DNA from: a virus | Virus record (IMG/VR): IMGVR_UViG_3300025897_000012 | Span: 1-64,000 of that record | Strand: one strand, 5' to 3' | Length of the DNA: 64,000 bases | Shown here: piece after piece, positions 5,747 through 45,800 of the stretch | Layout: each line of letters opens with the position of its first letter | Position numbering within the stretch: position 1 is the stretch's first letter | Position numbers and translations under genes: made by a program | Notes under the pieces: model-generated | The model's database searches: none | What the model was told of the DNA's origin: nothing | What the model saw: the letters and a program-made list of their open reading frames with translations, nothing else

Positions 5747-6838
5747 ATGTCAACAGAAACACTTTTAAGAACCGTAAGCCCTAACAAGGCTAAGAAAAGC
5801 ATTTTAAGAGCTTTTAGTAAAAAACGTCCTATATTTTTATGGGGACCTCCAGGTATTGGTAAGTCTGATATTATTGGACAAATTACTAATGGACTTTCTA
5901 AAAGCCATTTAATTGATATTCGACTATCTTTATGGGATCCAACAGATATTAAAGGTATTCCATATTATAGTGCAAATGATAACACTATGGCATGGGCACC
6001 GCCAGCAGAACTTCCAACACAAGAGTTTGCTGCACAATTTGATAATATTGTTTTGTTCTTAGACGAAATGAATTCAGCGGCACCAGCAGTACAAGCGGCC
6101 GCTTACCAGCTTATTCTTAACAGACGTGTAGGACAATATAAATTACCAGACAATGTTTTGATTGTTGCAGCTGGTAACCGTGAAGCTGATAAAGGTGTTA
6201 CTTATAGAATGCCTGCACCATTAGCAAATAGATTTGTTCACTTAGAACTAGCAGTTGATTTTGATGACTGGTTCCAGTGGGCTGTAGACAATAACATACA
6301 CCAAGATGTTGTTGGTTACTTGACATTTGCAAAGAAAGACTTGTATGACTTTGATCCAAAAAGTCCAAGTCGTTCATTTGCAACACCTCGTTCTTGGTCA
6401 TTTGTATCTGAATTACTTGAAGATGATGATGACGAGAATACCACTACTGATTTAGTTAGTGGCGCAGTTGGCGAAGGCCTAGCTGTGAAATTTAGTGCTC
6501 ACCGTAAAATTGCGTCGAGCTTGCCTAACCCAACTGACATATTGGACGGCAAAGTAACAGACTTGCACACCAAAGAAATCAGTGCCATGTATTCCTTAAC
6601 GGTGTCATTATGTTACGAATTGAAGGAAGCATCAGACAAAAATGATAAGAAATTTGATGCTAAAGTCAACAACTTTTTGAAGTTCTCAATGGCAAACTTT
6701 GAAACTGAATTAGTGGTTATGGGTATTAAACTCGCACTTACTCAGTATGGTTTACCAATTGACCCGGATGAAGTTGAATGCTTTGATGAGTTCCATGAAA
6801 GATTTGGAAAATACATCACAGCCGCTCAAAAGGCGTAA
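5747..6838 (+). CDS. MoxR/CobS-type AAA+ ATPase
   Basis: A 363-residue AAA+ protein with Walker A GPPGIGKS (33-40), Walker B LFLDEMN (about 103-109), a sensor-like AAGNRE segment and an arginine in PLANRF that could serve as an arginine finger. MoxR ATPases act as chaperones with a VWA partner to remodel or insert metal into client proteins; CobS is the cobalt chelatase relative and is common in marine T4-like phages, where its role is unclear. The next gene encodes a VWA protein, matching the usual pairing. It has its own early promoter, and a hairpin terminator follows the gene. Confidence 0.85.
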   Translation: MSTETLLRTVSPNKAKKSILRAFSKKRPIFLWGPPGIGKSDIIGQITNGLSKSHLIDIRLSLWDPTDIKGIPYYSANDNTMAWAPPAELPTQEFAAQFDNIVLFLDEMNSAAPAVQAAAYQLILNRRVGQYKLPDNVLIVAAGNREADKGVTYRMPAPLANRFVHLELAVDFDDWFQWAVDNNIHQDVVGYLTFAKKDLYDFDPKSPSRSFATPRSWSFVSELLEDDDDENTTTDLVSGAVGEGLAVKFSAHRKIASSLPNPTDILDGKVTDLHTKEISAMYSLTVSLCYELKEASDKNDKKFDAKVNNFLKFSMANFETELVVMGIKLALTQYGLPIDPDEVECFDEFHERFGKYITAAQKA

Positions 6839-6853
6839 AGGTGAATATGAGTT

Positions 6854-6890
6854 TGGACGTTCTCATTCAAAAAAACGTCCATTTTCTCTT
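6854..6890 (+). terminator. Rho-independent-like terminator after the MoxR gene
   Basis: An 8-base-pair perfect stem (TGGACGTT with AACGTCCA, arms 6854-6861 and 6874-6881) with a 12-base loop is followed by a T-rich run. It sits between the MoxR stop and the next promoter, so the two genes appear to be transcribed separately. Confidence 0.6.
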
Positions 6891-6917
6891 GACTTTTTCC
6901 ATTAAATATAGTATTAT
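6889..6917 (+). promoter_or_regulatory. Sigma70-type promoter ahead of the VWA gene
   Basis: TTGACT at 6889-6894 and TATTAT at 6912-6917 are 17 bases apart, starting in the T-run of the preceding hairpin. The ATG at 6954 follows after a weak purine-rich ribosome binding site. Confidence 0.65.
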
Positions 6918-6953
6918 ATAAACATAATAAGGCACTGAGATAAGGAATACAAT

Positions 6954-8252
6954 ATGACATCTAGTACAACTGTTACAAAACAAGGTAAAAAGAACTGGCA
7001 ACCTAATCCAGATATTACTGCTGAAGAATTAAAAGTAATGCGAGAAGACGTTTTAGAACGTATTGTTGTTGCTCGTGTTGGATTACTATTAAGACATCCT
7101 TTCTTTGGTAATATGGCAACACGCCTTCGTATTAAAGAAGCAGATGACTGGGTTCCTACTGCGGCTGTAGATGGTCGTAATTTATATTTTAATACACAAT
7201 TTTTTAATGCAATGGATAATAAAGAAATTGAATTTGTTATTGCACACGAAATCCTACATTGTGTATTTGATCATCTTACACGTAGAGATGATCGTGATCC
7301 GCAAATTTATAATATTGCCGCTGACTATATTGTTAATAACTTGTTAGTACGTGATAGAATTGGTAATAAACCTAAACTTATTGACTGTTTTCAAGACTTT
7401 AAATATGATGGTTGGTCTTCAGAAGCAGTTTATGATGATATTTTTGAAAAATACGATCAAGAAGAATTAGATGCTCTTGGTGAATTATTAGATGAACATG
7501 TTGACTGGGAGGGTAAAGACCAAGAAGGAAATGGTCCTGGTGTTAAAACAAAAGGTAAAAACGGTAAACCTTCATATTCAAAAGACGAGCTCAAAAAGAT
7601 ACGTGATGAAATAAAAGAAAACATGCTATCAGCAGCACAAGCCGCAGGAGCAGGTAATACTCCGGGCGAAATTGAAAGAATGATTAAGGATCTTACAGAA
7701 CCTAAAATGTCTTGGCGTGAAATACTACGTCAGCAAATACAGTCTACAATACGTAACGACTTTACATTTAGTCGACCTAATAGAAAAGGCTGGCATACTG
7801 GTGCTATACTACCAGGCATGAATTTTGATGAAACTATTGATATTGCTATTGGTATTGATATGTCAGGTTCAATTGGTAATTCACAAGCTAAAGATTTCTT
7901 AAGCGAAGTTAAAGGCATTATGGAAGAATATAAAGACTATAATATTAAATTATGGTGCTTTGATACACGAGTATATAACGAACAAGACTTCAGTGCAGAA
8001 AACGGCGAAAACTTAGAAGATTACCAAATTATGGGAGGCGGTGGAACTGAATTCGACTGCAACTGGGATTACATGAAAGAAAACGATATTCAACCTAAGA
8101 AGTTTATTATGTTTACAGATGGGTATCCTTGGCAGAGTTGGGGTGATGAAAGCTACTGTGACACTATATTTGTTATTCACAGTCATCATGACAAGAACTT
8201 AGAAGCACCATTTGGACTAACTACACATTATGATCAGCAACAAGCCGCCTAA
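6954..8252 (+). CDS. Metallopeptidase-like plus VWA domain protein, MoxR partner
   Basis: A 432-residue protein with two parts. The N-terminal half holds a zinc-metallopeptidase signature, AHEILHCVFDH (His98-Glu99, His102, third ligand perhaps His107), as in the DUF2201-type proteins. The C-terminal half is a von Willebrand A domain with the metal-site motif DMSGS (about 302-306) and a late FTDGYPW. Such proteins are encoded beside MoxR ATPases and are thought to act as substrate adaptors, similar to CobT. All key residues of both domains are visible, so it should be active. The gene has its own early promoter and overlaps the next gene by 23 bases. Confidence 0.8.
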   Translation: MTSSTTVTKQGKKNWQPNPDITAEELKVMREDVLERIVVARVGLLLRHPFFGNMATRLRIKEADDWVPTAAVDGRNLYFNTQFFNAMDNKEIEFVIAHEILHCVFDHLTRRDDRDPQIYNIAADYIVNNLLVRDRIGNKPKLIDCFQDFKYDGWSSEAVYDDIFEKYDQEELDALGELLDEHVDWEGKDQEGNGPGVKTKGKNGKPSYSKDELKKIRDEIKENMLSAAQAAGAGNTPGEIERMIKDLTEPKMSWREILRQQIQSTIRNDFTFSRPNRKGWHTGAILPGMNFDETIDIAIGIDMSGSIGNSQAKDFLSEVKGIMEEYKDYNIKLWCFDTRVYNEQDFSAENGENLEDYQIMGGGGTEFDCNWDYMKENDIQPKKFIMFTDGYPWQSWGDESYCDTIFVIHSHHDKNLEAPFGLTTHYDQQQAA

Positions 8253-8526
8253 AATTAAAGAACCAAATGCATTAAACTATTTTGAGTTAAGAAAACTCAA
8301 TAGAATTCCGCCTCATTTTGAATTTATTTCTATACCTATACCATATAATCTACAAAAAAGTATAGAAAAATGGATACTATCTAACTTAAAAGGTAGGTAT
8401 TACATTGACAAAAACATAGATGTAGACGATTCAGATACTATTCAAAGTGTATTAAAGATTGGATTTGAAGAAGGAAAAGAGATGAGTTATTTCACTTTAG
8501 CTTGTCCACATTTGAAATATAAGTAA
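8230..8526 (+). CDS. Hypothetical protein, 98 aa
   Basis: The start lies within the last 23 bases of the VWA gene. The product has an N-terminal FELRKLNRIPPHFEFISIPIP stretch, a basic centre and an acidic DVDDSDT segment, and ends with a Cys-His pair near the C-terminus. I see no recognised motif. Packing and codon use fit a real phage gene. Function unknown. Confidence 0.6.
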   Translation: MISNKPPKIKEPNALNYFELRKLNRIPPHFEFISIPIPYNLQKSIEKWILSNLKGRYYIDKNIDVDDSDTIQSVLKIGFEEGKEMSYFTLACPHLKYK

Positions 8527-8548
8527 ATAATATGAAGGAGAAATACTT

Positions 8549-8827
8549 ATGAGTGAAGACGCAACAATTAACGAACTAGGCGATATTTCAGCAGCAGCAC
8601 CAGAAGCATCTGAAAAGCCTGCAGCAACGCCGGCAGGTGAAGAAAAAAGTTTAGAATTAACTGTAAACGATTTACAGTTACTACGCCAATCAATTGAAGT
8701 GGCAACATCAAGAGGTGCTTTTAAAGCAGCTGAAATGTTAACTGTAGGAACTGTATTTAATAAGTTAGATGCTTTTTTAAATGCCGTTGCACAACAACAA
8801 AAGCAAGGAGAGACAAATGGCTCTTAA
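8549..8827 (+). CDS. Hypothetical phage protein, 92 aa
   Basis: A gene with a good AAGGAG ribosome binding site. The first 35 residues are Ala/Pro/Glu-rich and probably disordered; the rest (about 36-85) looks helical, with LTVNDLQLLRQSIEVATSRGAFKAA. This pattern is seen in a small protein of marine T4-like phages located near virion assembly genes. A degenerate late-promoter-like TAAATA lies upstream at 8524-8529. The end overlaps the next gene. Confidence 0.7.
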   Translation: MSEDATINELGDISAAAPEASEKPAATPAGEEKSLELTVNDLQLLRQSIEVATSRGAFKAAEMLTVGTVFNKLDAFLNAVAQQQKQGETNGS

Positions 8828-9428
8828 ACACGTAGGAAGAATAAAAAAGAATAAAAATAAAGTAGTAGTAGCATATAGAACTATACCAGGTGATGCAAAA
8901 TCAGCAGTCGTAGTTAATACTCAAGCACTTTCAGCAGACGAACATGATTCGTTAATGATTCAAGTTGAATCACAAGCAGGTCAATCTGCTTATGAATTTG
9001 CAGAGATGATGGCTAGAGCATCATTGCCTGATGGAAGGAACATGTTAGCAGCTTTTCATAAAACAGGAAAAATGATGAAAGTAGCAGTTGAAGAAGTTGA
9101 AATGCAACCAGATCATCAAACTATAATTCCTTTAAATGAACTTAATCAAATGATTGCAGATCAAAAAGGTGTTACAATTGACGAGCTTGCACTACAACCA
9201 AACGTACCAGCTCAGTCAGAAGCTACTCCTGTTGCAAGTATGCAAACAGCAGATATTAAGGCACCACAACAAGATACAGTCTTGTCAGATGAAGACTTAG
9301 CCGCACAATATCGTAGTCAAGCAGATTCTTTATACAAAGAAGCTAAAGCACTTAGAGCTCAAGCTGAAGAACTAGTACCGACTATTAAAAAGTCTAAAGC
9401 CAAAGCAACTGCAAGTGCCGTCGGATAA
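8817..9428 (+). CDS. Conserved T4-like phage hypothetical protein, 203 aa
   Basis: I chose the ATG at 8817, preceded by AAGGAG, rather than an in-frame start at 8781. The N-terminus MALKHVGRI, then VVAYRTIPGD and the helix AYEFAEMMARASLPDG, match a family I know from T4-like cyanophages, where it is unassigned. The C-terminal third is Ala/Lys/Glu-rich and probably coiled coil. It overlaps the previous gene by 11 bases and the next by 14, so the three are probably translated together. A virion-assembly role is plausible but not shown. Confidence 0.8.
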   Translation: MALKHVGRIKKNKNKVVVAYRTIPGDAKSAVVVNTQALSADEHDSLMIQVESQAGQSAYEFAEMMARASLPDGRNMLAAFHKTGKMMKVAVEEVEMQPDHQTIIPLNELNQMIADQKGVTIDELALQPNVPAQSEATPVASMQTADIKAPQQDTVLSDEDLAAQYRSQADSLYKEAKALRAQAEELVPTIKKSKAKATASAVG

Positions 9429-18695: not shown

Positions 18696-18820
18696 AAAAA
18701 ATTTCTCCTTTTTGCTAAATAAATGTATACAAAGATAAAAAAAGACTCACTTTTAAAAATTTTTTTATCCGTTTCATATAATTACTTATATAAGATGTAA
18801 ATTAAAAGGTTAAGGTCTGA
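18696..18820. other. Divergent intergenic region between methyltransferase and tctA
   Basis: A 125-base A/T-rich spacer between oppositely transcribed genes. It holds the methyltransferase ribosome site, a TATAAT-like box at 18777-18782 toward tctA without a convincing -35, and an AAGGTTAAGG purine run before the tctA ATG. I see no late motif oriented toward either gene, no hairpin and no small gene. Confidence 0.4.
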
Positions 18821-20260
18821 ATGGAAGAAATTTTAGCATTACTAGCAGGAACACTATATGGACTAATTATAGGTATTATTCCTGGTGCAGGTGCAACTAC
18901 AGGCCTCATTTTTATATTTTCTTTTATTACATTATTTCCAGATCCGTACTTAGGAGTTATATTTTGCATGGCAGTAGTGGCAGCAAGCACAACAGGTGAT
19001 ACTTATACCGGAGTATTGTTAGGTATTCCTGGGGCAAATAGTGCCGCTGCAACTATGGTTGACGGCTTTCCGTTAGCACTACAAGGCAAGGCTACCTATG
19101 CAATATCTGCCGCGGTAACCACAAGTACAATAAACGGACTACTTTGGGGTGCTTTAGTATTCTTTTTACTTCCTTACTATACAAGCCTTATAATGGTATT
19201 TGGAGTGCCTGAACTATGGGCGTTCACTTGTTTAGCATTAGTAACCGTAACATTTATTACAAACAAGTGGTGGGTGAGAGGTGTTATAGCACTTGCTGTA
19301 GGAATTTTTATTGGTATGATCGGTGTTGATCCTAACACTAACGCAGATAGGTTTACTGGAGGGATTGAATACTTAGGTGCAGGAGTACAACTATTACCAT
19401 TAGTAGCAGGATTGTTTGCAATACCAGAACTTTTAGACGGATTAAAAAATAGAAAAAATACTGCTACTGTTTCTCTTTCTAATGGGGAACAAACAAAACA
19501 AGGATTTAAAGCAGTTTGGCAAAATAAATGGCTAGCCCTTAGAGGTGGTGCAATAGGAGCATTTATAGGAATTCTACCTGGCTTAGGTGGTGCAATGGCA
19601 GATTGGATGGCTTATGGGCAAGCTGTCGCAACAACTAAAAATCCAGATGTACCATTTGGAAAAGGAAACATTAGAGGTGTAATTGGACCAGAAGGTGCTA
19701 ACAATGCTCAAAAAGCTACAAGTATGATTCCTACTGTACTTTTTGGAATACCCGGAGCACCATTCGCAGCAATACTAATTGGATTATTCATGTATTTGGA
19801 TTTTGAATTAGGTACTGTAGACCTTGCTAATGACCCTAAGTTCTTTGACAGTATGTTGTACGGGTTTATGCTTGCAACTGTGCTTGTAGGCGCTCTATGC
19901 TTGCTTACGACACCTATTATAGCACGTATAGCACAAATACCCTACAAATATTACTTTCCGCTACTATTAGGTTTTATAACACTCGCATGTGTACAATACA
20001 CAGGTGGTTGGGAAGATTACGCTATTTTGGCAGTATGCTCAGTAATTGGAGTACTTGCCAAAAATTACAAATTTAGTAGACCAGCTCTACTATTTGGGTT
20101 CATTCTATCAGATAGAATTGAACAACTTACATTACAATTATCAAGTTTGTATAGTCTAGATAGACTTATTGATAGACCAATATTCATTGGACTTATCTTG
20201 CTAATTTGTGTTGTACTAATTTGGGGACTTACCCAAAGAAATAAACTAGAATATGCATAA
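18821..20260 (+). CDS. tctA: TctA-like large permease of a tripartite tricarboxylate transporter
   Basis: A 479-residue, strongly hydrophobic protein with about 11-12 predicted membrane segments. The N-terminus has the family motif GIIPGAGATTGL and the second repeat GILPGLGGAMADWMAYGQA; GPEGANNA and GIPGAP motifs also match TctA. TTT permeases import citrate, tartrate or other carboxylates across the inner membrane using an ion gradient and a periplasmic TctC protein. The full length and intact motifs argue for an active protein. It is followed 18 bases later by a TctC gene. This is not a normal phage gene and is best explained as acquired from the host. Confidence 0.92.
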   Translation: MEEILALLAGTLYGLIIGIIPGAGATTGLIFIFSFITLFPDPYLGVIFCMAVVAASTTGDTYTGVLLGIPGANSAAATMVDGFPLALQGKATYAISAAVTTSTINGLLWGALVFFLLPYYTSLIMVFGVPELWAFTCLALVTVTFITNKWWVRGVIALAVGIFIGMIGVDPNTNADRFTGGIEYLGAGVQLLPLVAGLFAIPELLDGLKNRKNTATVSLSNGEQTKQGFKAVWQNKWLALRGGAIGAFIGILPGLGGAMADWMAYGQAVATTKNPDVPFGKGNIRGVIGPEGANNAQKATSMIPTVLFGIPGAPFAAILIGLFMYLDFELGTVDLANDPKFFDSMLYGFMLATVLVGALCLLTTPIIARIAQIPYKYYFPLLLGFITLACVQYTGGWEDYAILAVCSVIGVLAKNYKFSRPALLFGFILSDRIEQLTLQLSSLYSLDRLIDRPIFIGLILLICVVLIWGLTQRNKLEYA

Positions 20261-20278
20261 CAAAGGAGAAAAAATATT

Positions 20279-21325
20279 ATGAAAAAGTTTATTACATCAG
20301 TGCTTTTAGCACTTACTTTATCAACGCCGGCATTCGCTGATTACACGTTTGTGGTTCCTCAAAAGCCAGGAGCAGGTACATCACAATGGGCTGAGATTAT
20401 CGCTAAAGAACTAGAACCGTTCTTAGGTGAAAAAATTGTTATTAAATTTATTCCAGGAGCAAGAGATATTCCTGGGTTCAATAAATGGCATAACACAATG
20501 CGTGACAACGACAAGGCTGTAATGGTATCACACGGCGGAAATGGTGTAAGTTTTCTACAAGAAGAAGTAGACTATGACTACAGGCAATATGATAGTGTAG
20601 GATTAATGAATCTTAACATTATTGCTGGTAAAGCATCAGGTGCTGATATGAACAAGCCAAGTTTTGCAGCAGGTTCAGGTATGGTTCCTGAAGCATTTGC
20701 TTTTACAATGCTTATTTGTGGACCAGACAAAAGTATTGAAGAATATACAGCATGTTTTAAAGAAAATGTAACATGGGTTAAAGGTATGAGTGGTGCTGAA
20801 CGTAGACTAGCTTTTAAAAGAGGCGAGTTGACTGGTACTAGAGAAAATCCTGCGGCTTATAAAAAGCATGTTGCTCCTAATACAAAAGCAGAAATTTGGT
20901 TCCATCATGGTATTTTACAAGCAGATGGTTCGCATGCTGATGATCCAAACTATCCAGGATACCAGTTTGAAACTTTGTTTGAAAAGCGTTGGGGTGTAGC
21001 ACCAAGTGGTGATATGTACAAGGCTTATAAACTTGTAAAAAGTTTCCGTGATGGTATGCAAAAAGCTCTATGGGTTAACAAAGGTAATCCTAATAGACAA
21101 GCACTAGTAGATGCTTTAACTGCTATGAGTAAGGATAAGTCAGCAATGGCTAACATTCAGAAAAAAGTAGGTAAGTATGATTGGCTTATTGGAGAAGCTG
21201 GTAACAATCATAGAGACACACTTATGACTTTTGTTACTACAGATGCTTTAAGTTCTCTAGTTAAGTTCAATCGTAACGCACTAGGATTAAATAGTGTAGA
21301 GAAGATTGAATTAGCATTAAAGTAA
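20279..21325 (+). CDS. tctC: TctC-like periplasmic solute-binding protein
   Basis: A 348-residue protein with a clear Sec signal peptide (MKKFITSVLLALTLSTPAFA, cleavage after residue 20). The mature part begins YTFVVPQKPGAGTSQWAEIIAK, matching the TctC/Bug fold, in which the PGAGTS region contacts the ligand. The ribosome site AAAGGAGA is strong. It would capture a carboxylate and pass it to TctA. Its sequence is more divergent from the usual Bug family than TctA is from its own, so the ligand cannot be inferred. The small permease TctB, normally encoded between or beside them, is not recognisable. Confidence 0.88.
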   Translation: MKKFITSVLLALTLSTPAFADYTFVVPQKPGAGTSQWAEIIAKELEPFLGEKIVIKFIPGARDIPGFNKWHNTMRDNDKAVMVSHGGNGVSFLQEEVDYDYRQYDSVGLMNLNIIAGKASGADMNKPSFAAGSGMVPEAFAFTMLICGPDKSIEEYTACFKENVTWVKGMSGAERRLAFKRGELTGTRENPAAYKKHVAPNTKAEIWFHHGILQADGSHADDPNYPGYQFETLFEKRWGVAPSGDMYKAYKLVKSFRDGMQKALWVNKGNPNRQALVDALTAMSKDKSAMANIQKKVGKYDWLIGEAGNNHRDTLMTFVTTDALSSLVKFNRNALGLNSVEKIELALK

Positions 21326-21335
21326 GGAAGTATAT

Positions 21336-22052
21336 ATGGCGTTTAAATTCAACAGAAGTAAGATGAAATATTTGACCAACCCTGATGATTATAAAAGTAA
21401 TTGGGAGTGGACAAAGAGTAACAGTAACTATCATTTTGATAAAAACACAGTTGACGGCCTAGGTGAAACATTTCGTGTATGCGGAACATTTCATGGAGAC
21501 TGGGAAGCTGAGTTACAAGATGTTATAAAAGACAGCAAAGCTGTTACTTGGGCCACTAGGGGTAAGAAAGGTGAACGAAAAGACAAGTTTATCAAACAGG
21601 AAGAATATGATCTAACTTCTGTTGGCGCTAACGTTAACTTAGAAGTATCTAACTTTAATAGAAACTGTGAGAAATATACAAAAATAAATGAGATGGCAGA
21701 ATATTTCCATCTTGAAAATTTTCAAAAAAGAATACATGTGCAAACTACAGGACAGCTTTGGAATTTGCATATAGATAAATTATACCAATGGAATCCTGAG
21801 GACCCATCAAAAGTAATTAGAATTACAATTATGCTAAATGACTGGGAACCAGGACAATTTTACATGTACGGCAATCGTATATATGATAGATGGAAAACTG
21901 GAGAAATACATATTTTTGATTGGCCAAATACTCCACATTCAACAGCTAATACAAGCTACGTACCAAGAATAAGTTTACAGTTAACAGGTATTAGAACTGA
22001 AGATACTAATAAAATATTAAACGAACGAGATCATTACTATTCTGTGGAATAA
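21336..22052 (+). CDS. 2OG-Fe(II) oxygenase-like protein (short form)
   Basis: A 238-residue protein with a triad His145-x-Asp147 in LHIDK, His201 in TPHSTA and Arg211 in VPRISLQLTG. It is a paralogue of the longer protein at 16246-17214: both share the GDWE segment and the late pattern in which a GEI/GEC strand is followed by D-W-x-N-x-P-H. It sits 10 bases after tctC, so it is in the same transcription unit. A role in processing the imported compound is possible but unproven; the paralogue in the sulfotransferase cluster suggests a more general role. Confidence 0.7.
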   Translation: MAFKFNRSKMKYLTNPDDYKSNWEWTKSNSNYHFDKNTVDGLGETFRVCGTFHGDWEAELQDVIKDSKAVTWATRGKKGERKDKFIKQEEYDLTSVGANVNLEVSNFNRNCEKYTKINEMAEYFHLENFQKRIHVQTTGQLWNLHIDKLYQWNPEDPSKVIRITIMLNDWEPGQFYMYGNRIYDRWKTGEIHIFDWPNTPHSTANTSYVPRISLQLTGIRTEDTNKILNERDHYYSVE

Positions 22053-22056
22053 ATGA

Positions 22057-22410
22057 ATGGTAGAATTATTAGTTGCTAACATAGTCTATGTATTATATAG
22101 ATTACTAGTAACTGCTCATATAGTTAAGTTTTTATACAAGTATATACCTTACGGGTTTGCTGTTTTAGTATCAGCACAGTTAAGTTTTTTATATGACGGT
22201 GGTGTTTTTGCCTACCTATTCCAAGCACAAGCATTACCGGAACTAGCAGAGTTTATACAAGCTAACGTATTATATACACTAAGAGTTGGTATAGCGTGGT
22301 GGATTATAAAGATACTATGGGACCGGCTAGATAATTACTACCTATCAGTGTTTATAGGTGCAGAGCTTACATTTGTAGTAGACTACTTTATTTTTGAGGG
22401 AGTGTACTAG
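22057..22410 (+). CDS. Small integral membrane protein, 117 aa
   Basis: A hydrophobic protein with about four possible membrane segments (roughly residues 3-26, 33-54, 70-88 and 95-115) and very few charges. It follows the oxygenase by four bases. It could be the missing small TctB subunit in a highly diverged form (TctB usually has about 150 residues and four segments), a holin-like protein, or an unrelated inner-membrane factor. I see no conserved motif that decides among these. The ribosome site is weak, so translation is probably coupled. Confidence 0.6.
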   Translation: MVELLVANIVYVLYRLLVTAHIVKFLYKYIPYGFAVLVSAQLSFLYDGGVFAYLFQAQALPELAEFIQANVLYTLRVGIAWWIIKILWDRLDNYYLSVFIGAELTFVVDYFIFEGVY

Positions 22411-22438
22411 TAGGTAAATATAATAAAGGATGCTATTA

Positions 22439-23095
22439 ATGAATCATGATACAATAAAAGAATTTGAAGATTTAAGTAAAGAATATTTTAATGTGCCCGG
22501 ACATAAAAAATTAAGACAAGGACAGAAAAACAGATTACCAAAATATTCCTTTGTAGTAGAGAAGTTTAACAAAGAAGATAACATAGTCGATGCAGGTTGC
22601 GGTGGCAGTTACTTTAAAGGTATTTTTCCAAATTTAATTGCATTTGATATAGTCGACTACAATAATCAAGATTACGTTTGTAATATATTAGATGCTCCTA
22701 TACCAGAAGATAGCCAAGATGGAGTTTTTTGTTTTGGTGTACTACATGAATGTCCAGATGAATATCATCTACCTAATATAGAAAAAATGTTAACGTGGTT
22801 AAAGCCCAACGGACAATTAGTAATGAGATGTAAAGCTAAACTAGTTACAAACAAACATCGTAAAGAACGACTATATGAACGTAAGTATAATGAATACTTT
22901 GATCAAGGATTATGGAGTAGAGAAAGAATTGATCAATTTACACAACAATTAAATTTAAAACTTAATTGGGTTATACATAGAGAAACTCTACGAAAAGATC
23001 AACGAACTAATGTTAAAGGGACTAACTTTGATTCATCTCATGACAATGATGTAGTTTTTAACGGACATATCTGGAGTTGGAGTAAAAATGTTTAA
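22439..23095 (+). CDS. Class I SAM-dependent methyltransferase, tandem copy 1
   Basis: A 218-residue protein with motif I IVDAGCGGSYF, FDIVDY as motif II, and FGVLHECPDEYH plus LKPNGQLVMRCK as the C-terminal core. I chose the ATG at 22439, nine bases after AAAGG, over the ATG at 22430. The next gene is a close copy, with long near-identical stretches (for example around FPNLIAFDIVDY and GVFCFGVLHECPDE). Tandem duplication is evident. Substrate unknown. A late-like GGTAAATA lies at 22413-22420. Confidence 0.8.
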   Translation: MNHDTIKEFEDLSKEYFNVPGHKKLRQGQKNRLPKYSFVVEKFNKEDNIVDAGCGGSYFKGIFPNLIAFDIVDYNNQDYVCNILDAPIPEDSQDGVFCFGVLHECPDEYHLPNIEKMLTWLKPNGQLVMRCKAKLVTNKHRKERLYERKYNEYFDQGLWSRERIDQFTQQLNLKLNWVIHRETLRKDQRTNVKGTNFDSSHDNDVVFNGHIWSWSKNV

Positions 23096-23732
23096 AGAAT
23101 TTGAAGAAATCTCAAGAATATACTTTAGTGCTAATGGCAGTAGGGAATTACGCAGAGGTTCTAAAATTCATAAAAATACTAGTAATGATTTTTTATATTC
23201 TTTACCTAAAAATGCAAATGTTGTTGATGCTGGATGCGGGCCAAATGCGTTTAGAACTATTTTTCCAAATTTAATTGCTTTTGATATAGTTGATTATGGT
23301 AATCAAGATTATGTTTGTAATATATTAGAAGCACCTATACCAGAAAGTAGCCAAGATGGCGTTTTTTGTTTTGGTGTACTACATGAATGTCCAGATGAAT
23401 ATCATCTACCTAACATAGAAAAAATGCTATCTTGGTTAAAACCAGGTGGTAAACTAATAATGCGTTGTAAATCAAAAGAAGTAGTAGATAAACACCCTCG
23501 TAACAGTAATGCCGTTGGAGAAATGCATGAATATTTTGATCAGGGATTGTGGCCAATAGAAAGAGTTAATCAATTCACGCAACAATTAAATTTAACGCTT
23601 GATTGGATTGAGCCTAAAATAATAACACGTAAACAACAGTGGAATTCTAATCCTAAAAAACGTTTTCATTCGTCTCATGACAATGATATAATCTTTGATG
23701 GACATATTTGGTGTTGGAGTAAAAATGTTTAG
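23088..23732 (+). CDS. Class I SAM-dependent methyltransferase, tandem copy 2
   Basis: A 214-residue protein with VVDAGCGPNAF, FDIVDY, FGVLHECPDEYH and LKPGGKLIMRCK in the same order as the preceding gene. Its start overlaps the previous stop by eight bases. The N-terminal 40 residues and the C-terminal 60 differ most, so substrate choice may have diverged. The 3' end overlaps the small membrane protein gene by eight bases. The pair is a recent tandem duplication within a single transcription unit. Confidence 0.8.
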   Translation: MFKEFEEISRIYFSANGSRELRRGSKIHKNTSNDFLYSLPKNANVVDAGCGPNAFRTIFPNLIAFDIVDYGNQDYVCNILEAPIPESSQDGVFCFGVLHECPDEYHLPNIEKMLSWLKPGGKLIMRCKSKEVVDKHPRNSNAVGEMHEYFDQGLWPIERVNQFTQQLNLTLDWIEPKIITRKQQWNSNPKKRFHSSHDNDIIFDGHIWCWSKNV

Positions 23733-27022: not shown

Positions 27023-28182
27023 CCATATCTTATTTCATCAAACAAATTTAAAAACAAAGGCATGTGAGATCTTTCTAAAAATTTTGCTCTATTTATTTTA
27101 CCAAATTTTCTCATTGTCTTTAGAGCAGTTTTTGTCTCTAATGAGTTTTTATTATTTTCTATTCTATTTAATTCATGACAAATTAAATCAGCACGTATAT
27201 CAAAGTCTAAATATGTATCATATTTTTCATTTATAAGATCATAGAAAGTAAAATATCCTAACTTATTAATATACTTTATTGTTTGTTGACATCCTAGTGC
27301 AATAAACGGTTTACCCATTACTATTAATTGCCATATACTGAGATTTGTAAATAAGGCATTTACTTCACTCATATAAATTCGGTGGTTGTCGGGTGCCCAA
27401 GGAGTTAATATTGTAAAAAGGCTATTAGAATGATAGTCTAACTTATCATCTTTATCAATAATTGTACCACGAGTATGCAAGTTATTCGATTCTAAAGATT
27501 TACGCAAGGCTAAGCAATTATCAGCTTTTGGAAATTCAGAATATGTATGATATAGTAGCTTAGGATTAAAAGTTTCCATATCATAGTCTTTGACTGGCAT
27601 AATCTTATTAATAGGTTCAAAGAAATTTGTGTATTTTTCGGTATTATTATTAATAATTAACTTAGCTTCTATTTGCCACCAATCAATACTGTATGACTTA
27701 TATGGTTGTAATAATTCTCTATAACTATTATTAACATCTGATGTAACAATTAGTATATTTTCTATTGGTACTTGACATCTCATAAACATTTCTGCTACAT
27801 GCCTAGTACGAATTACTTCATTATACCCCTGTAATGTCTGTCCTAGTATTAAAACTTTCATTTTTCCATCTCGTAAATGGTCTAATGTTTTATTTGGTAT
27901 ATTAATGTTTATTCCATAAGACACTTCAAATGGATAAAATACATAATCTTCTACTGTACTAAAAGGATTACCTATTACATCTCCTGTATATAACGTCATT
28001 TCACAATTATTTTTTTTCATTGTATAATAGAAACTAGAAATAACTTCAGTCATTGCATCTTTACTATCTGGCCATTTGCCATAAGGATAGGGCCAAGTGT
28101 CTTTATTAAAATTGTAACTAGTAATTCCGTTCGGTACAGGGCCGTCGTCTGTTATAATATCATAATAAAAATTAATCGACAT
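27019..28182 (-). CDS. Putative glycosyltransferase, GT-B-like, 387 aa
   Basis: The C-terminal part holds a segment around residues 280-330 with NALFTNLSIWQLIVMGKPFIALG and then QTIKYINKLGYFTFYDL, which matches the donor-site pattern of phage GT-B-like or exostosin-like proteins (a helix, a G-K/H-P-F-I turn, and L-x-x-L-G-x-x-T-F). The N-terminal part is rich in Tyr and Asn. The upstream radical-SAM gene overlaps its start by 11 bases. Function as a sugar transferase is inferred from this motif and from the neighbours. Confidence 0.5.
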   Translation of the reverse strand: MSINFYYDIITDDGPVPNGITSYNFNKDTWPYPYGKWPDSKDAMTEVISSFYYTMKKNNCEMTLYTGDVIGNPFSTVEDYVFYPFEVSYGININIPNKTLDHLRDGKMKVLILGQTLQGYNEVIRTRHVAEMFMRCQVPIENILIVTSDVNNSYRELLQPYKSYSIDWWQIEAKLIINNNTEKYTNFFEPINKIMPVKDYDMETFNPKLLYHTYSEFPKADNCLALRKSLESNNLHTRGTIIDKDDKLDYHSNSLFTILTPWAPDNHRIYMSEVNALFTNLSIWQLIVMGKPFIALGCQQTIKYINKLGYFTFYDLINEKYDTYLDFDIRADLICHELNRIENNKNSLETKTALKTMRKFGKINRAKFLERSHMPLFLNLFDEIRYG

Positions 28183-29455
28183 ATTCTTTTAACCACTGTT
28201 TCCATATTTCAGTAAACTTAGGATGAATTTTTGTAACATCTTGATTTCTAATTCTATCATATGTTAGTGTTCTTTTTACAAGGTGATTTCTATAACCCTT
28301 GTGTCTTTCAATTGTTTCAAGATCATCATACGGAGTGGTTAATCTACTTAAAATATGGTTTAATCGACTTATTCTTATTTGTTTATCAGTTAATAAAGGC
28401 AATCGTTTTTTTAAATCTTCTGCAATTTCTATTCTATACTCATAAGGAATAATGTCTAAAATTAAATCAATTGGTCCATTTACAGGATTGAATACAAAAT
28501 TTCCTCTTTTACCATGATCAATCCAGTAATCAAGTAATTTAGGCAATTCCCATGCATTGTAAACTTGTGCAGTAGCTAGAAAATGTACATGTATTTTAGG
28601 CATTGACAAGTAATGTTTATATGCTTTATCTAGTTGTTCCCAGTTTGCTCCATATCTAATATAATCGTTAGTATAACCTATACCGTCCATACTAAAGTGT
28701 AATTCAACTTGCTTAAATTTAGACAACAATGGCGTAACTTTACTCTTTATTCTACTTCCGTTAGTAGTAATATCTAAAACTAAGTGTGTGTTTCCGCTTT
28801 CTACACACCATTTTAATAGAGTATATACTCCAGGCATGAACAATGGCTCTCCGCCTGCTATTTTAATTGTGTGGAGATGTGGTATTTGTTTTTTTATACT
28901 TTCAAAACAAACTGGATCTTCTATCCATTCGTCTACATCTGTCCATTCTTCAAACATAATATCTTGTGTTTCAGGATGTGCTAACTGTTCTTTAGCTATT
29001 GTACTACTAATTGCACCAAAACACATTCTACAGCCAAAGTTACATAACCTACCAGGACGTAGATCTGACCATACTGGATATCCTGTAGTGTTTCCTTTTT
29101 CAATATCTATGTGTATAGGATCTGTTTTTTGCCTATTACTACGTATAAAATTAGTATTTTGACTTTCTCTATCAGAACCTCCACCCTCTCTATCTTGCTT
29201 GTAACAAGTTCCGCATCTACTTTCAAATTTACCCTCTAACATATTTTTTCTAACTTCTTGCATATCTTTTCCAGTCCAGATATCTTGAAGATCTTTTCCT
29301 TTAACATCATCTACGATATTATTGTTATAATCTCCTAAACAACATAAGTTTACAAATCCATTTGTAGCTACATATTGATGAGTAAACGGCATAGCACAAA
29401 ATGCAGGATTATTAGCAATTTGAGACTCAAAGTTTAAATCATAATTTTTTTTCAT
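28172..29455 (-). CDS. Radical SAM protein with N-terminal twitch domain (copy A)
   Basis: A 427-residue enzyme with an N-terminal twitch (half-SPASM) domain whose Cys are at 20, 38-39, 81 and 84 (CAMPF, LCCLGD, CGTC), then the radical-SAM core with CNFGCRMC (138, 142, 145) and IAGGEP. Radical-SAM enzymes cleave SAM with a 4Fe-4S cluster to start radical chemistry; the twitch domain binds an extra cluster. The same family occurs in phage and bacterial sugar or peptide modification loci. It is the fourth and last radical-SAM gene in a row and overlaps copy B by 17 bases. Substrate unknown. Confidence 0.85.
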   Translation of the reverse strand: MKKNYDLNFESQIANNPAFCAMPFTHQYVATNGFVNLCCLGDYNNNIVDDVKGKDLQDIWTGKDMQEVRKNMLEGKFESRCGTCYKQDREGGGSDRESQNTNFIRSNRQKTDPIHIDIEKGNTTGYPVWSDLRPGRLCNFGCRMCFGAISSTIAKEQLAHPETQDIMFEEWTDVDEWIEDPVCFESIKKQIPHLHTIKIAGGEPLFMPGVYTLLKWCVESGNTHLVLDITTNGSRIKSKVTPLLSKFKQVELHFSMDGIGYTNDYIRYGANWEQLDKAYKHYLSMPKIHVHFLATAQVYNAWELPKLLDYWIDHGKRGNFVFNPVNGPIDLILDIIPYEYRIEIAEDLKKRLPLLTDKQIRISRLNHILSRLTTPYDDLETIERHKGYRNHLVKRTLTYDRIRNQDVTKIHPKFTEIWKQWLKEYVD

Positions 29456-31682
29456 TACATTCCTCTATCATCTGTGCTACATCCGGCAATGATGTTTTCC
29501 AAGACTCGTTTCTAATTTTATCTAAACTTTCCATCCAAGGCCATAAACGGTTATACTCATTAGCATCAGGTTCTTTGTCCCATAAGTGCATTAATATACT
29601 TTTGCATCTTTGCTCAACCTTACGACAAAATGCTTTTTCATCTACACTATTATTCCATTTATCATTTATACGTTTTATAAAATTTTTATATTTTTTATCT
29701 ATATATCGTTTGTATTCTATAGGCAAGTTTTGTATATTAAGTGTAGCAGGTCCGTATAGATTATGTACAATTATAACAGGTTCAATCCGATTCCAATTTT
29801 GCTCTTTCATCCACCATTGCATTTCTGGATAATGTAAAACGTTTTGTAGACTTAAAGTAAGTGTAACACTAGCAATTAATCTTTCAAATCCTTGTTCCTT
29901 ATCAATCCTACGCATATTCTTTAGGACAGTACTAAATTTTCCTGGGTGTCGGATGTATTCAAAATGAGAATTAATACCGTCTATACTCATTCCTAAATTT
30001 ACTTGTTTAAAAGATTTCCATTGATCAAATACTTTGCTAGGAACACCTGCCATATTAGTATTATAATCTAACGTAACATTATTTGCTGTTCCTCTTTTTA
30101 TATAACAATCTAACAGTTCTCTATGTTTTAAATTTATAGTTGGCTCTCCGCCTGTAAAATAATACCTTTTAATTGTATCTAAATTATTCATAATATGCGA
30201 CCATAACTTTGTAAAAGTTTGATCTGGTTCAAAAAGATCAGGAACAGTATTTGTACCATCAGGTAAAGTTTCAATCTTAACTGTGTTATGCCCTCTATAA
30301 TTAAAAACTCCTGAAGGCTGTAACTTTACCCAATCATCATACCATAAATTACTATCAGTTGGTCCACAGCTTCTACACTTTAAATTACATTTATTACCAA
30401 ATCTTAAATCCATATATGTTATAGGGAATTCTTCATCTTTTATGGTTCCGTCTTTTTTAGTAAGTGTAACTGCTTTGTGATATACATCTTCATATAATTT
30501 TCTGGTCCACTGGCGTTTACTTCCTATCCCGTTTTGTTCTTCATTCGTACACAGTTTACATACTTCTGGATCAATGCCATTCAGCATTTCTTGTCTTAGT
30601 TTCTTCCATACAGGTGCATTTCTATGCTGTGTAACGTCATCTTTTCCTGTAAGCACAGTACCATCTTCTTTGTATACTGTACCATAAGGATCATTAATCA
30701 TTTGACAACACATGCGAATACTTCCATCAGCGTTTGTTGCTAAGTGATTCCATGCAATAGGACAAAATGCCTTCCATCTATCTTTGTTTACTAACATATT
30801 CTCCTGTGTTTTTTCTATTTTTTCTACAGGTTTATCTAATCTTAGTTTTAACAATGTTCTTATTTTTCTTCCTCGAGGGGTATCTATACTAGGAAGATCT
30901 TTCTTTAGCCATAGTGCTTCAAGAACTTCTTGATCTTTGTCATACTCTGCAACAATCGCCATAACCTCAACCGGACAATCTGGGTGTAAAACCATTTCAA
31001 TTCTTTCTTGTGAAGTACGAACAATATCTAAATCAAAAGACATAGGTTTTTGAGGCCACGTAAAATCAAAAGAAAAATTATTATTTTGTTTTATCCATTT
31101 GTCCATAGTTTTCTGGAACTTCTTTCTATCCAAAGTTGGAAATATATGCAGTAGCTGATCTGTTAATTTTACAGCAGAAATATTTAACTCGTCTAAGTTT
31201 ATAATATATGACTTTTTAAAATAATCAGTGTAATGACTTGTATTATCATGATCTCTTTTCATATTGTCTGAATGTCTTATCATCCAATGTTCAGTAAGGT
31301 TTTCTTGCTCTTTTAATTTTTGATATCCTAATTGTGCCCAGTAATTGTAATTACGAGTAATAACAAAACAGATAACAGTCATACTACTATCCCAGTATTC
31401 TTTAATAATGTTAGGATTATAACTGTGATAATGATCCTTGTACAGATCATACTTGTTAGGATCGTTTTCACCTTCATATATATGTTCTTTTTCGACTAAA
31501 GAATATTTTATTTTACAAAATGACTTCCATCTATTTGTGCCTATAGGCTGTGCTTCTTTTCTAGGTATTTTGTTAATTTCAGGTACACATTCGCTTAACA
31601 AACTAGTAATCATTTCGCCACCAGTTCCAGCAGAATATAATAAAAGATAATTATGATTGTTGTTGGAAGAATTTAATTTCAT
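29439..31682 (-). CDS. Radical SAM twitch protein with extra N-terminal domain (copy B)
   Basis: A 747-residue fusion. Residues 1 to about 295 form an extra domain that starts with LLLYSAGTGGEMITSLL, which resembles a P-loop of sulfotransferase-like proteins. Residues 303-378 are a twitch domain (C307, C325-326, C375, C378), and the core follows with CNLKCRSC (432, 436, 439) and TGGEP. The core is close to copy A, but the fusion is absent there. The N-terminal part may choose or modify the substrate. The start overlaps copy C by 32 bases, which implies coupled translation. Confidence 0.8.
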   Translation of the reverse strand: MKLNSSNNNHNYLLLYSAGTGGEMITSLLSECVPEINKIPRKEAQPIGTNRWKSFCKIKYSLVEKEHIYEGENDPNKYDLYKDHYHSYNPNIIKEYWDSSMTVICFVITRNYNYWAQLGYQKLKEQENLTEHWMIRHSDNMKRDHDNTSHYTDYFKKSYIINLDELNISAVKLTDQLLHIFPTLDRKKFQKTMDKWIKQNNNFSFDFTWPQKPMSFDLDIVRTSQERIEMVLHPDCPVEVMAIVAEYDKDQEVLEALWLKKDLPSIDTPRGRKIRTLLKLRLDKPVEKIEKTQENMLVNKDRWKAFCPIAWNHLATNADGSIRMCCQMINDPYGTVYKEDGTVLTGKDDVTQHRNAPVWKKLRQEMLNGIDPEVCKLCTNEEQNGIGSKRQWTRKLYEDVYHKAVTLTKKDGTIKDEEFPITYMDLRFGNKCNLKCRSCGPTDSNLWYDDWVKLQPSGVFNYRGHNTVKIETLPDGTNTVPDLFEPDQTFTKLWSHIMNNLDTIKRYYFTGGEPTINLKHRELLDCYIKRGTANNVTLDYNTNMAGVPSKVFDQWKSFKQVNLGMSIDGINSHFEYIRHPGKFSTVLKNMRRIDKEQGFERLIASVTLTLSLQNVLHYPEMQWWMKEQNWNRIEPVIIVHNLYGPATLNIQNLPIEYKRYIDKKYKNFIKRINDKWNNSVDEKAFCRKVEQRCKSILMHLWDKEPDANEYNRLWPWMESLDKIRNESWKTSLPDVAQMIEECNEKKL

Positions 31683-33048
31683 TATCGCTATATCCTACTA
31701 ATTCACTACTATTGTCTATTCCTCTAATAGGAACTAAACTGGTAGCGCCAATTTGTCTTCCGTTTGCACCGTTGTCAAAAATTCCAAGTTCTATAATTTT
31801 TTCATTAAATGATTGAGCTCTTTCTAACATACCCGGTGGTGTCATTAATTTAATCTCTAACCAAAAGTCATCATTTACACTTTTATGGTGATCAATTATA
31901 ATTTTACAATTTTCAATAAATCTTTGTTCGTTTCCTTTGTATAAATCCATACTACCAAAATGGGCACTCATATTTATACTGTTAATATACTGACATGCTT
32001 CTTTCCAATATTTTGTACTTCTACTTCCATTAGTAGTAACAAGTATCCATTGATCTCGTTCCTTTAAATGTTTTAGTATATCTAAAAACTTTGGATTCAT
32101 TGTTGGCTCTCCGCCCCCAAAGTTCCATCTTATACTAGCACCTTTACTCCATGTATCTATTGCTTTATCTATAGTTTCAATAATTTTATTATATGAGTGA
32201 TGTTCTTCTGTATTATTATGAACACTTGGCCAACAGTAGTCACAATCGTAATTACAACGTCTAGTAATGTCCCATAAAATTTGATACTCAATTGGAAAAT
32301 TCATTTCTATTCCAACAGGAATAGTATCAAATGCTATGTGTGGATTTTTTACTGCATCTTGTAATTGTCCTTTGTCTTGTCCATCATACCCATATTTTGT
32401 TACATTTAAATTTTCTAAAGCTAACTCGTCTTTAGCTTTACTTAAAATTACATCGGCTCCACAACCACAACTTGTTAACGGACATGTAGTCCATTTTTTA
32501 GGAGCTTCCCATCCTGTAAAAATACTACCTTGTAATCCCCATACTTTAGTATCTTTTTGTGCTTTCCACTGCCAAGTTGCTGGATCTTTCATAAACTGTT
32601 TGTAAGGATCGTCAAAAAATATTTTTTCTAACCTTCCAATTTCTGCCATTAATTTATGTTGCTGTTCACTGTTCTTGTAATCATGCTTGGGCATAGGCCA
32701 ACCGTTTTCAGTATTAGCATTTATCCAATCTTTACGTTTATCACTGCCGTCTGCTCCTATAATAGATTCTCTATATTCTTGCCATTGCCTATCTATTAAC
32801 TTTGGATCTTGATTCGTATAGGTTGTTACACGCTGATCATGAACTTTACCGTAATGAGATGCACTTGCACAATTTGCAATCCATACATTACCATCATAAT
32901 CTATGTATAAACTTCGCACTCCAGCACTACACTTCCAATCTTTCCATTTGTTTAAGTTATTTGCAATTACTTCATCAACACTAAAAAGACTATACTGATT
33001 ATTTTTGTTATAAATTCTAAGTTGTTTATTGTCTGTAGGTTGATCCAC
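31651..33048 (-). CDS. Radical SAM protein with SPASM-like domain at the N-terminus (copy C)
   Basis: A 465-residue protein. The core lies in the C-terminal half, with CNYDCDYC (265, 269, 272) and FGGGEP. The N-terminal half has Cys at 40, 60, 189, 194 and 196. The spacings C40-C60 (20) and C189-C194-C196 (5 and 2) equal those of the C-terminal SPASM-like domain of copy D (C260-C280, C304-C309-C311), so this domain appears to have been moved to the front, with about 105 extra residues between. It starts at GTG directly after the copy D stop, with AAGGAG nine bases upstream. The order of domains is unusual for the family. Confidence 0.8.
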   Translation of the reverse strand: MDQPTDNKQLRIYNKNNQYSLFSVDEVIANNLNKWKDWKCSAGVRSLYIDYDGNVWIANCASASHYGKVHDQRVTTYTNQDPKLIDRQWQEYRESIIGADGSDKRKDWINANTENGWPMPKHDYKNSEQQHKLMAEIGRLEKIFFDDPYKQFMKDPATWQWKAQKDTKVWGLQGSIFTGWEAPKKWTTCPLTSCGCGADVILSKAKDELALENLNVTKYGYDGQDKGQLQDAVKNPHIAFDTIPVGIEMNFPIEYQILWDITRRCNYDCDYCWPSVHNNTEEHHSYNKIIETIDKAIDTWSKGASIRWNFGGGEPTMNPKFLDILKHLKERDQWILVTTNGSRSTKYWKEACQYINSINMSAHFGSMDLYKGNEQRFIENCKIIIDHHKSVNDDFWLEIKLMTPPGMLERAQSFNEKIIELGIFDNGANGRQIGATSLVPIRGIDNSSELVGYSDNEIKFFQQQS

Positions 33049-34017
33049 TTATACACGCTCCTTCTTACTCATTATATCAAAGTTACAATGACAATAGCTT
33101 TTATTGCATATAACAGGATCAATAGGCCATGCTATGTTATCAGGATCTTTCATATTTCCTAAAGAACCACCAACACGGCACCAACCAATCATTACAGTTC
33201 CATCAAAGTCTACAACAATCTGTTCAACGCCACTATAACACTTCCAGCCCTCCCAGTTGTTAGTATTTTCAGCAATAAATCTATGTGCGGCACTATTTTT
33301 TGTTTTACCTGTTACTGTATCAATCATATCCATACTGCCTCTATAAAGTTTAAAGTTGTTGCTTTCTTCAGTATACTTTATATGTTTTCCAAAATCTTGC
33401 CATTGCCTATCAATAACATCAAGTTGGTCTTGTGTGTAAGGAAATCGTTCATTACCAAAGTCGATTACAAGCGGTTGCAACGCTAAACTAAAATTTTCAG
33501 CTTCTTTAACTAATCTTTTTGTAAGATTTACTCCATTATTAAATCTATCTTTATCAGTATGCATCATAATGTTTACATGAGTTCTACAAACCTTTGACAT
33601 AATTTTTACTACTTCTAAAAAGTGGCCTGCTTCTGCACTTTCAGGATGAAAACTTAAACAAACATGATCAAAATTATTTTTATTCTTTTCCCACCAACGA
33701 ATAGTTCTACTAGCGTTACTAATAAATCCTATATCGTGTCCTTTAGACTTAATGTACTGAGCACACTTTATAAAATCTTTCCATAAAGTTACTTCGCCTC
33801 CAGTAAACTCAAAATAAACTTTCCTTGGAGCATAATGTGTTTCACAAGCATCAATAAATTTTTTAATTACTTTAAAATCTTGCCAACCAAAACTACCATT
33901 ATTTAAAATAGGAGGACAGTAACTACAGGTATAGTTACACATGTTTCCTAAATTCCAGTTTACAACAACCCAGTCTTTAGCTTCTTTATGATGATGGTCT
34001 AAGATATTATATTGCAT
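33049..34017 (-). CDS. Radical SAM protein with C-terminal SPASM-like domain (copy D)
   Basis: A 322-residue protein with a standard N-terminal radical-SAM core: CNYTCSYC (27, 31, 34), FTGGEVTLW (71-79) and a strand pattern of a partial TIM barrel. The C-terminal part carries five Cys (260, 280, 304, 309, 311) that would bind an auxiliary cluster. It is the first of four radical-SAM genes in the unit and follows a glycosyltransferase gene by three bases. Such enzymes can modify peptides or sugars. I found no short precursor peptide nearby, so a sugar or protein substrate is the simpler guess. Confidence 0.85.
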   Translation of the reverse strand: MQYNILDHHHKEAKDWVVVNWNLGNMCNYTCSYCPPILNNGSFGWQDFKVIKKFIDACETHYAPRKVYFEFTGGEVTLWKDFIKCAQYIKSKGHDIGFISNASRTIRWWEKNKNNFDHVCLSFHPESAEAGHFLEVVKIMSKVCRTHVNIMMHTDKDRFNNGVNLTKRLVKEAENFSLALQPLVIDFGNERFPYTQDQLDVIDRQWQDFGKHIKYTEESNNFKLYRGSMDMIDTVTGKTKNSAAHRFIAENTNNWEGWKCYSGVEQIVVDFDGTVMIGWCRVGGSLGNMKDPDNIAWPIDPVICNKSYCHCNFDIMSKKERV

Positions 34018-45792: not shown

Positions 45793-45800
45793 TATTTATC
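45793..45800 (-). promoter_or_regulatory. Late promoter motif (GATAAATA, minus strand)
   Basis: GATAAATACA on the minus strand, about 20 bases before the ATG at 45773. It lies inside the end of the giant gene. Confidence 0.55.

Follow-up and report, generated by a model that had tools for sequence, protein, structure and literature searches.

The closest described counterpart of the locus analysed here is the bacterial tripartite tricarboxylate transporter (TTT) TctCBA (TC 2.A.80), in which the hallmark of the TctA family is a duplicated G-x3-G-x3-G-x2-P-G-x-G motif located in transmembrane helices 1 and 7 (TM1 and TM7; PMC5812351). On the viral side, Roux et al. (2014, PMC4164917) described a tctA domain on a SUP05 viral contig as a putative auxiliary metabolic gene. 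The present locus lies in the window, i.e. the whole analysed stretch of 64,000 nucleotides (positions 1 to 64,000) of virus record IMGVR_UViG_3300025897_000012, where tctA is followed by a tctC-like gene, an oxygenase-like gene and a gene for a 117-residue membrane protein. As in bacteria, the viral pair combines TctA family membership and motifs with a predicted TctC fold and a signal peptide, encoded by adjacent genes. Unlike bacterial TctCBA, it comes with no TctB, its TctC is invisible to the Pfam model, its TctA belongs to a separate virus-dominated clade and its gene order is mostly tctA then tctC. It also differs from the SUP05 gene, since the sections of that report dealing with tctA describe no tctC, small subunit or clade. 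Cyanophage PstS, as is generally known, is likewise a periplasmic solute-binding protein supplied by the phage (PMC6359870); the pair described here differs in that the permease is also supplied and in belonging to another transporter class. On balance we favour the reading that the pair forms a virus-owned importer of the TTT type, with the 117-residue protein in this phage as a possible substitute or accessory subunit.

The TctA protein was compared with its family model and with its viral relatives. It matched PF01970 at E 3.7e-97 and 326 bits (cut-off 28.9) over model positions 1–422 of 423. Both copies of the glycine motif were present; in the first, G10, G14, G18, P21 and G24 were kept in 15 of 15 viral TctAs while one other glycine varies, and in the second, G242, G246, G250, P253, G254 and G256 were kept in all 15. 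The ratio of non-synonymous to synonymous substitution rates (dN/dS) against relatives was about 0.05–0.1 for TctA, indicating purifying selection, and about 0.05–0.17 for both the TctC-like and the 117-residue proteins, with the largest distances approaching saturation at silent sites. A sequence search returned no solved TctA structure. The original prediction, made from the letters of the window and its open reading frames (ORFs), had described an intact 479-residue TctA, and the ORF, full domain and both motif copies agree with this. One 328-kb viral record (L009) carries two different TctA genes, at positions 74301–75569 and 162626–163885 of that record.

The TctC-like protein gave no match in Pfam TctC, NCBIfam or PHROGs, and PF03401 also failed to match the corresponding proteins of L057, L059 and L082. 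A profile built from 17 relatives reached a best E of just 0.28, to MatC. Its structure was modelled from the 17 viral relatives, with a predicted local distance difference test (pLDDT) score of 89.4. The eleven best solved structures for this model were all TctC/Bug proteins (Z 18.1–20.3, 258–270 residues, 10–16 % identity), headed by 2qpq (Z 20.3, 268 residues aligned, 13 % identity), and the next fold dropped to Z 12.8; Foldseek agreed on the TctC fold (E 1e-8). Because the predicted fold is that of TctC/Bug and the sequence libraries are silent, the assignment as a divergent TctC is made from the model. The TctC with signal peptide that had been proposed at this position is thus upheld by the predicted fold and not by sequence models. 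For the G-G-x-x-D loop of TctC, which holds two carboxylate-bridging waters, a weak profile alignment placed G-x-G-T-S, in which the Asp would not be kept.

Table 1. Features of the tctA–tctC locus, with coordinates in the window
Feature	Coordinates	Strand	Basis
Intergenic region, 125 bp	18696..18820	.	separates divergent methyltransferase gene from tctA; ORF map, sequence
tctA, 479-residue permease subunit of TTT type	18821..20260	+	PF01970, purifying selection, virus-dominated clade
TctA glycine motif, copy 1	18848..18892	+	residues 10–24, TM1
TctA glycine motif, copy 2	19544..19588	+	residues 242–256, TM7
Divergent tctC, 348-residue periplasmic solute-binding protein	20279..21325	+	predicted TctC/Bug fold
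Signal peptide of TctC-like protein (MKKFITSVLLALTLSTPAFA)	20279..20338	+	sequence; A20 invariant in 17 relatives
2-Oxoglutarate/Fe(II) oxygenase-like gene	21336..22052	+	same gene run; HxD (145/147), H201 and R211, kept in 10/10 relatives
117-residue four-helix membrane protein, candidate substitute small subunit	22057..22410	+	starts four bases past oxygenase gene
Duplication half 1, residues 1–58, helices 1–2	22057..22230	+	profile half-vs-half comparison
Duplication half 2, residues 61–117, helices 3–4	22237..22407	+	profile half-vs-half comparison

The genomic setting of the pair was used to judge whether it is viral. The record comprises 79,754 bases and encodes baseplate wedge proteins, SbcC/SbcD-type recombination subunits, QueE and tail proteins. 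Since this record also carries genes for the baseplate and for recombination, the host-type metabolic genes tctA and tctC stand on a genuine virus genome. Its closest baseplate counterparts come from 440–490-kb jumbo phages infecting Sinorhizobium, Agrobacterium and Salicola (31–35 % identity), which makes the record a probable piece of a T4-like jumbo phage genome. When viral contigs were scanned, close TctA relatives turned up in 135 stretches, of which 80 loci were fetched, and TctC-like relatives were encoded at 385 stretches. TctA and TctC co-occurred in 77 of the 82 sources first examined (window counted), and tctC lay directly 3' of tctA in 27 of 35 dereplicated loci. Core phage genes were found beside the pair, with clamp loader and DNA polymerase genes flanking it in L059 and a terminase gene followed by a structural gene and then tctA in L044. 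Among 50,697 cultured-phage records, no close TctA relative was found; seven records gave distant matches (27–31 %), mostly unannotated or short and one being a 691-kb Salmonella record. The TctC-like and 117-residue proteins had no relatives in the same collection.

In two trees, 38 viral TctA representatives and three sequences from the genome collection (L107, L108 and L109) formed one group with full support, on a stem of 2.15 changes per site separating it from ordinary bacterial TctA. Both were quick trees with Shimodaira–Hasegawa approximate likelihood ratio test (SH-aLRT) support, the second with the nearest bacterial sequences added. In the genome collection, these three TctA relatives were found at 57–59 %, followed by a gap down to about 37 % and below. 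Since the bacterial sample was chosen by two peptide patterns and capped at 80 tctA loci, closer bacterial relatives than those sampled may exist. The viral TctA lineage is old and virus-dominated, and the few cellular members of the clade may be transfers from viruses, of which the trees give no proof. L107 (Omnitrophota) has TctA only, with no paired TctC. In L108 (Marine bacterium B5-7), a phage-type TctA–TctC pair (5995–9154) stands beside bacterial redox genes and was perhaps captured from a virus. L109 (1–7834) is a short contig in a Pelagibacter bin with phage-type TctA, TctC, sulfotransferase-like, oxygenase and methyltransferase genes; as its neighbours are phage-type, it is very likely a mis-binned phage fragment.

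Both the metagenomic derivation of the virus record and the presence of the same genes on this Pelagibacter contig could be taken to mean that bacterial genes were misjoined to phage DNA in assembly, or that the pair is a recent passenger from one host. This explanation is highly improbable given that the pair recurs in more than 100 independent viral contigs, some of 200–330 kb (longest 328 kb), in places amid core phage genes, that the viral clade is long-stemmed and that the Pelagibacter contig itself has phage-type neighbours. An assembly chimera is rejected on the recurrence and gene context, and recent transfer from one bacterium on the trees, even with the nearest bacterial sequences added. 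The original prediction of a phage-borne pair in a clearly viral region is borne out by recurrence, core-gene context and viral clade, together with the baseplate, SbcC/SbcD-like and QueE genes. A placement of TctA and TctC inside one bacterial genome, which it had named as counter-evidence, was not seen, the viral TctAs forming their own clade.

The small subunit TctB (PF07331) was detected in none of 296 viral loci, as against 66 of the 80 bacterial tctA loci. It was likewise absent from 29 viral records, from the record of the window and from the vicinity of the genes in L107, L108 and L109. This accords with the earlier statement that no recognisable TctB accompanies the pair. Two small membrane proteins were found as candidates for the vacant position, namely the 117-residue protein and DUF6552.

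The 117-residue protein has relatives at 62 viral loci (44–97 % identity). Its two halves matched each other by profile with probability 97.8 and E 8e-13, and 0 of 2000 shuffles were as good. The model (pLDDT 93.8) has four helices, and these retain charged or polar residues. The protein is TctB-like in being small, in having four helices where 4–5 are expected and in being encoded with tctA. TctA and/or TctC were present within about 8 kb of the gene in 41 of the 62 loci, with TctA farther off in six further contigs, and the gene was directly 3' of tctC in 13 of 63 loci and of tctA in one of 63. It accompanies even a TctA just ~41 % identical to that of the window (L082), and in L317 it is near a canonical TctC where L310, in matching context, has TctA–TctC. 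DUF6552 had TctA/TctC nearby in 44 of its 69 loci and was directly 3' of tctC in 19 of the 63 loci examined. The two proteins were never found in the same locus, and in L013 and L015, with otherwise similar gene order, DUF6552 fills the slot that the 117-residue gene occupies in the window. On contigs lacking tctA, DUF6552 is often near a canonical TctC (PF03401, E 2e-29). The positions by tctC or tctA, mutual exclusion, slot sharing and company of canonical TctC point to a functional tie of both small proteins to the importer.

By sequence, the 117-residue protein is not a relative of TctB (no PF07331 match in 19 members; profile probability 0.2 %), of GtrA (no PF04138 match, no profile similarity) or of DUF6552 (no profile similarity). 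It had no Pfam match at all, the family found no PDB chain by sequence, and Foldseek gave no match below E 1. The suggestion that it is the membrane candidate for TctB therefore stands as regards a conserved companion without a recognisable match, and fails, by profile comparison, as regards TctB ancestry. In two loci with a divergent arrangement, TctC–TctA–oxygenase is followed by DUF2061, a two-helix membrane protein (L082:3595-3795 and L084:5166-5366).

Several observations weigh against a subunit role. In fold, the 117-residue protein comes closest to the GtrA-type membrane domain of dolichyl-phosphate mannose synthase (5mm1, 5mlz), which has a different function and shares the four-helix arrangement; the match (Z 10.3, 107 residues, 3.3 Å; next 6.5) is in a range that is possibly common for helical bundles. 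There is no detectable sequence similarity to this domain and no partner bactoprenol glycosyltransferase was identified, and the predicted GtrA-like fold is suggestive only. The gene also occurs in another setting, flanked by two other phage genes and not near tctA, and on some contigs it was seen with no tctA found, although these contigs are fragmentary. DUF6552 occurs without tctA on phage contigs of up to 212 kb, and it was not seen beside tctA in bacteria, where five loci were found, each only about 3 kb. Of the 27 dereplicated loci that extend six or more genes downstream, 17 had neither small protein within six genes. Methyltransferase (26/35), sulfotransferase-like (19/35) and oxygenase (15/35) genes are commoner neighbours than either; for this reason much of the neighbourhood of the pair is regarded as a shared hypervariable region.

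In an alternative reading, TctA and TctC are the entire viral share, host TctB is used or TctA works without it, as has been proposed for archaea, and the 117-residue protein is unrelated, for example a GtrA-like flippase of lipid-linked sugars. The 17 loci without a small protein and the GtrA-type fold match are both in its favour, as are the TctB gene in the Pelagibacter bin of L109, for use of host TctB, and the mostly stand-alone occurrence of TctA in archaea (PMC5898192), for function without it. It does not readily account for the 117-residue gene lying directly 3' of tctC or tctA in 14 loci or being kept with a strongly diverged TctA; for the flippase version, neither profile comparison nor Pfam gives a sequence link, and a Z of 10 in a helical bundle may be coincidence. 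We regard this alternative as a serious contender that nonetheless falls short of an even chance. That the 117-residue protein specifically serves as a non-homologous replacement for the third subunit, or as an accessory, is proposed with similar reserve because of the loci without either small protein, the hypervariable neighbours and the second setting of the gene.

It was also considered whether the TctC-like protein is chiefly a receptor or sensor, or a periplasmic agent against other phages, with import secondary. A part in signalling or chemotaxis has been suggested for TctC proteins that stand alone (PMC5812351), and other phage contigs pair canonical TctC with DUF6552 with no tctA found. 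As TctA is present with TctC in 77 of 80 tctC-seeded loci, such a role is unlikely. Stand-alone canonical TctC (PF03401) with no tctA near the locus was observed near DUF6552 in L258, L261, L264, L270, L271, L274, L277, L278 and L279, and near the 117-residue protein in L317; this suggests that in phage contigs lacking tctA it borrows a host permease.

For the favoured virus-owned importer, transport, its direction, its substrate and the part of the 117-residue protein are envisaged as follows. In the periplasm, the secreted TctC-like protein would bind an organic solute that is small and probably acidic; the TctA permease would then carry this solute inward, powered by an ion gradient. The infected cell would thereby gain carbon or a precursor. 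With no classical TctB encoded, the 117-residue protein of the same gene run would stand in, and other phages may use DUF6552, host TctB or no third subunit.

The oxygenase-like protein gave no Pfam match. It had been suggested to act on the imported compound; this found no support, its relatives directly following the pair in just 7 of 34 dereplicated loci, and the gene is probably a hypervariable neighbour and not a transporter part. Transcription of the unit most likely begins in the intergenic region upstream of tctA. A sigma-70-like match at 18753–18782 was no better than chance, and promoter scan matches did not exceed those in shuffled sequence. Elsewhere in the window, two tandem, similar methyltransferase-like genes (22430–23095 and 23088–23732) appear to be a duplication, a series of large radical-SAM-like genes lies at 28172–34017 (minus strand), of which 29439–31682 was searched and gave a PHROG radical-SAM match, and a single ORF of 5183 residues spans 45796–61347 (minus strand) in the tail region.

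Few descriptions exist of phages that encode a complete secondary importer; the literature found goes no further than a tctA domain match on viral contigs (PMC4164917). A many-membered, virus-owned clade across large marine phages suggests organic acid uptake by infected cells on the virus's own terms, which bears on the flow of dissolved organic carbon. It is conceivable, albeit more doubtful than the importer itself, that an importer branch of their own has persisted for a long time in marine phages of the jumbo and T4-like kinds, and that TctB was replaced there at least twice by unrelated small membrane proteins, the four-helix duplicate and DUF6552. If TctB has indeed been replaced by unrelated small phage proteins, the third subunit would be functionally exchangeable. 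Because what TctB does is listed as unknown (PMC5812351), TctB-free viral systems that carry candidate substitutes at the corresponding position would offer a direct route to the function of the third subunit.
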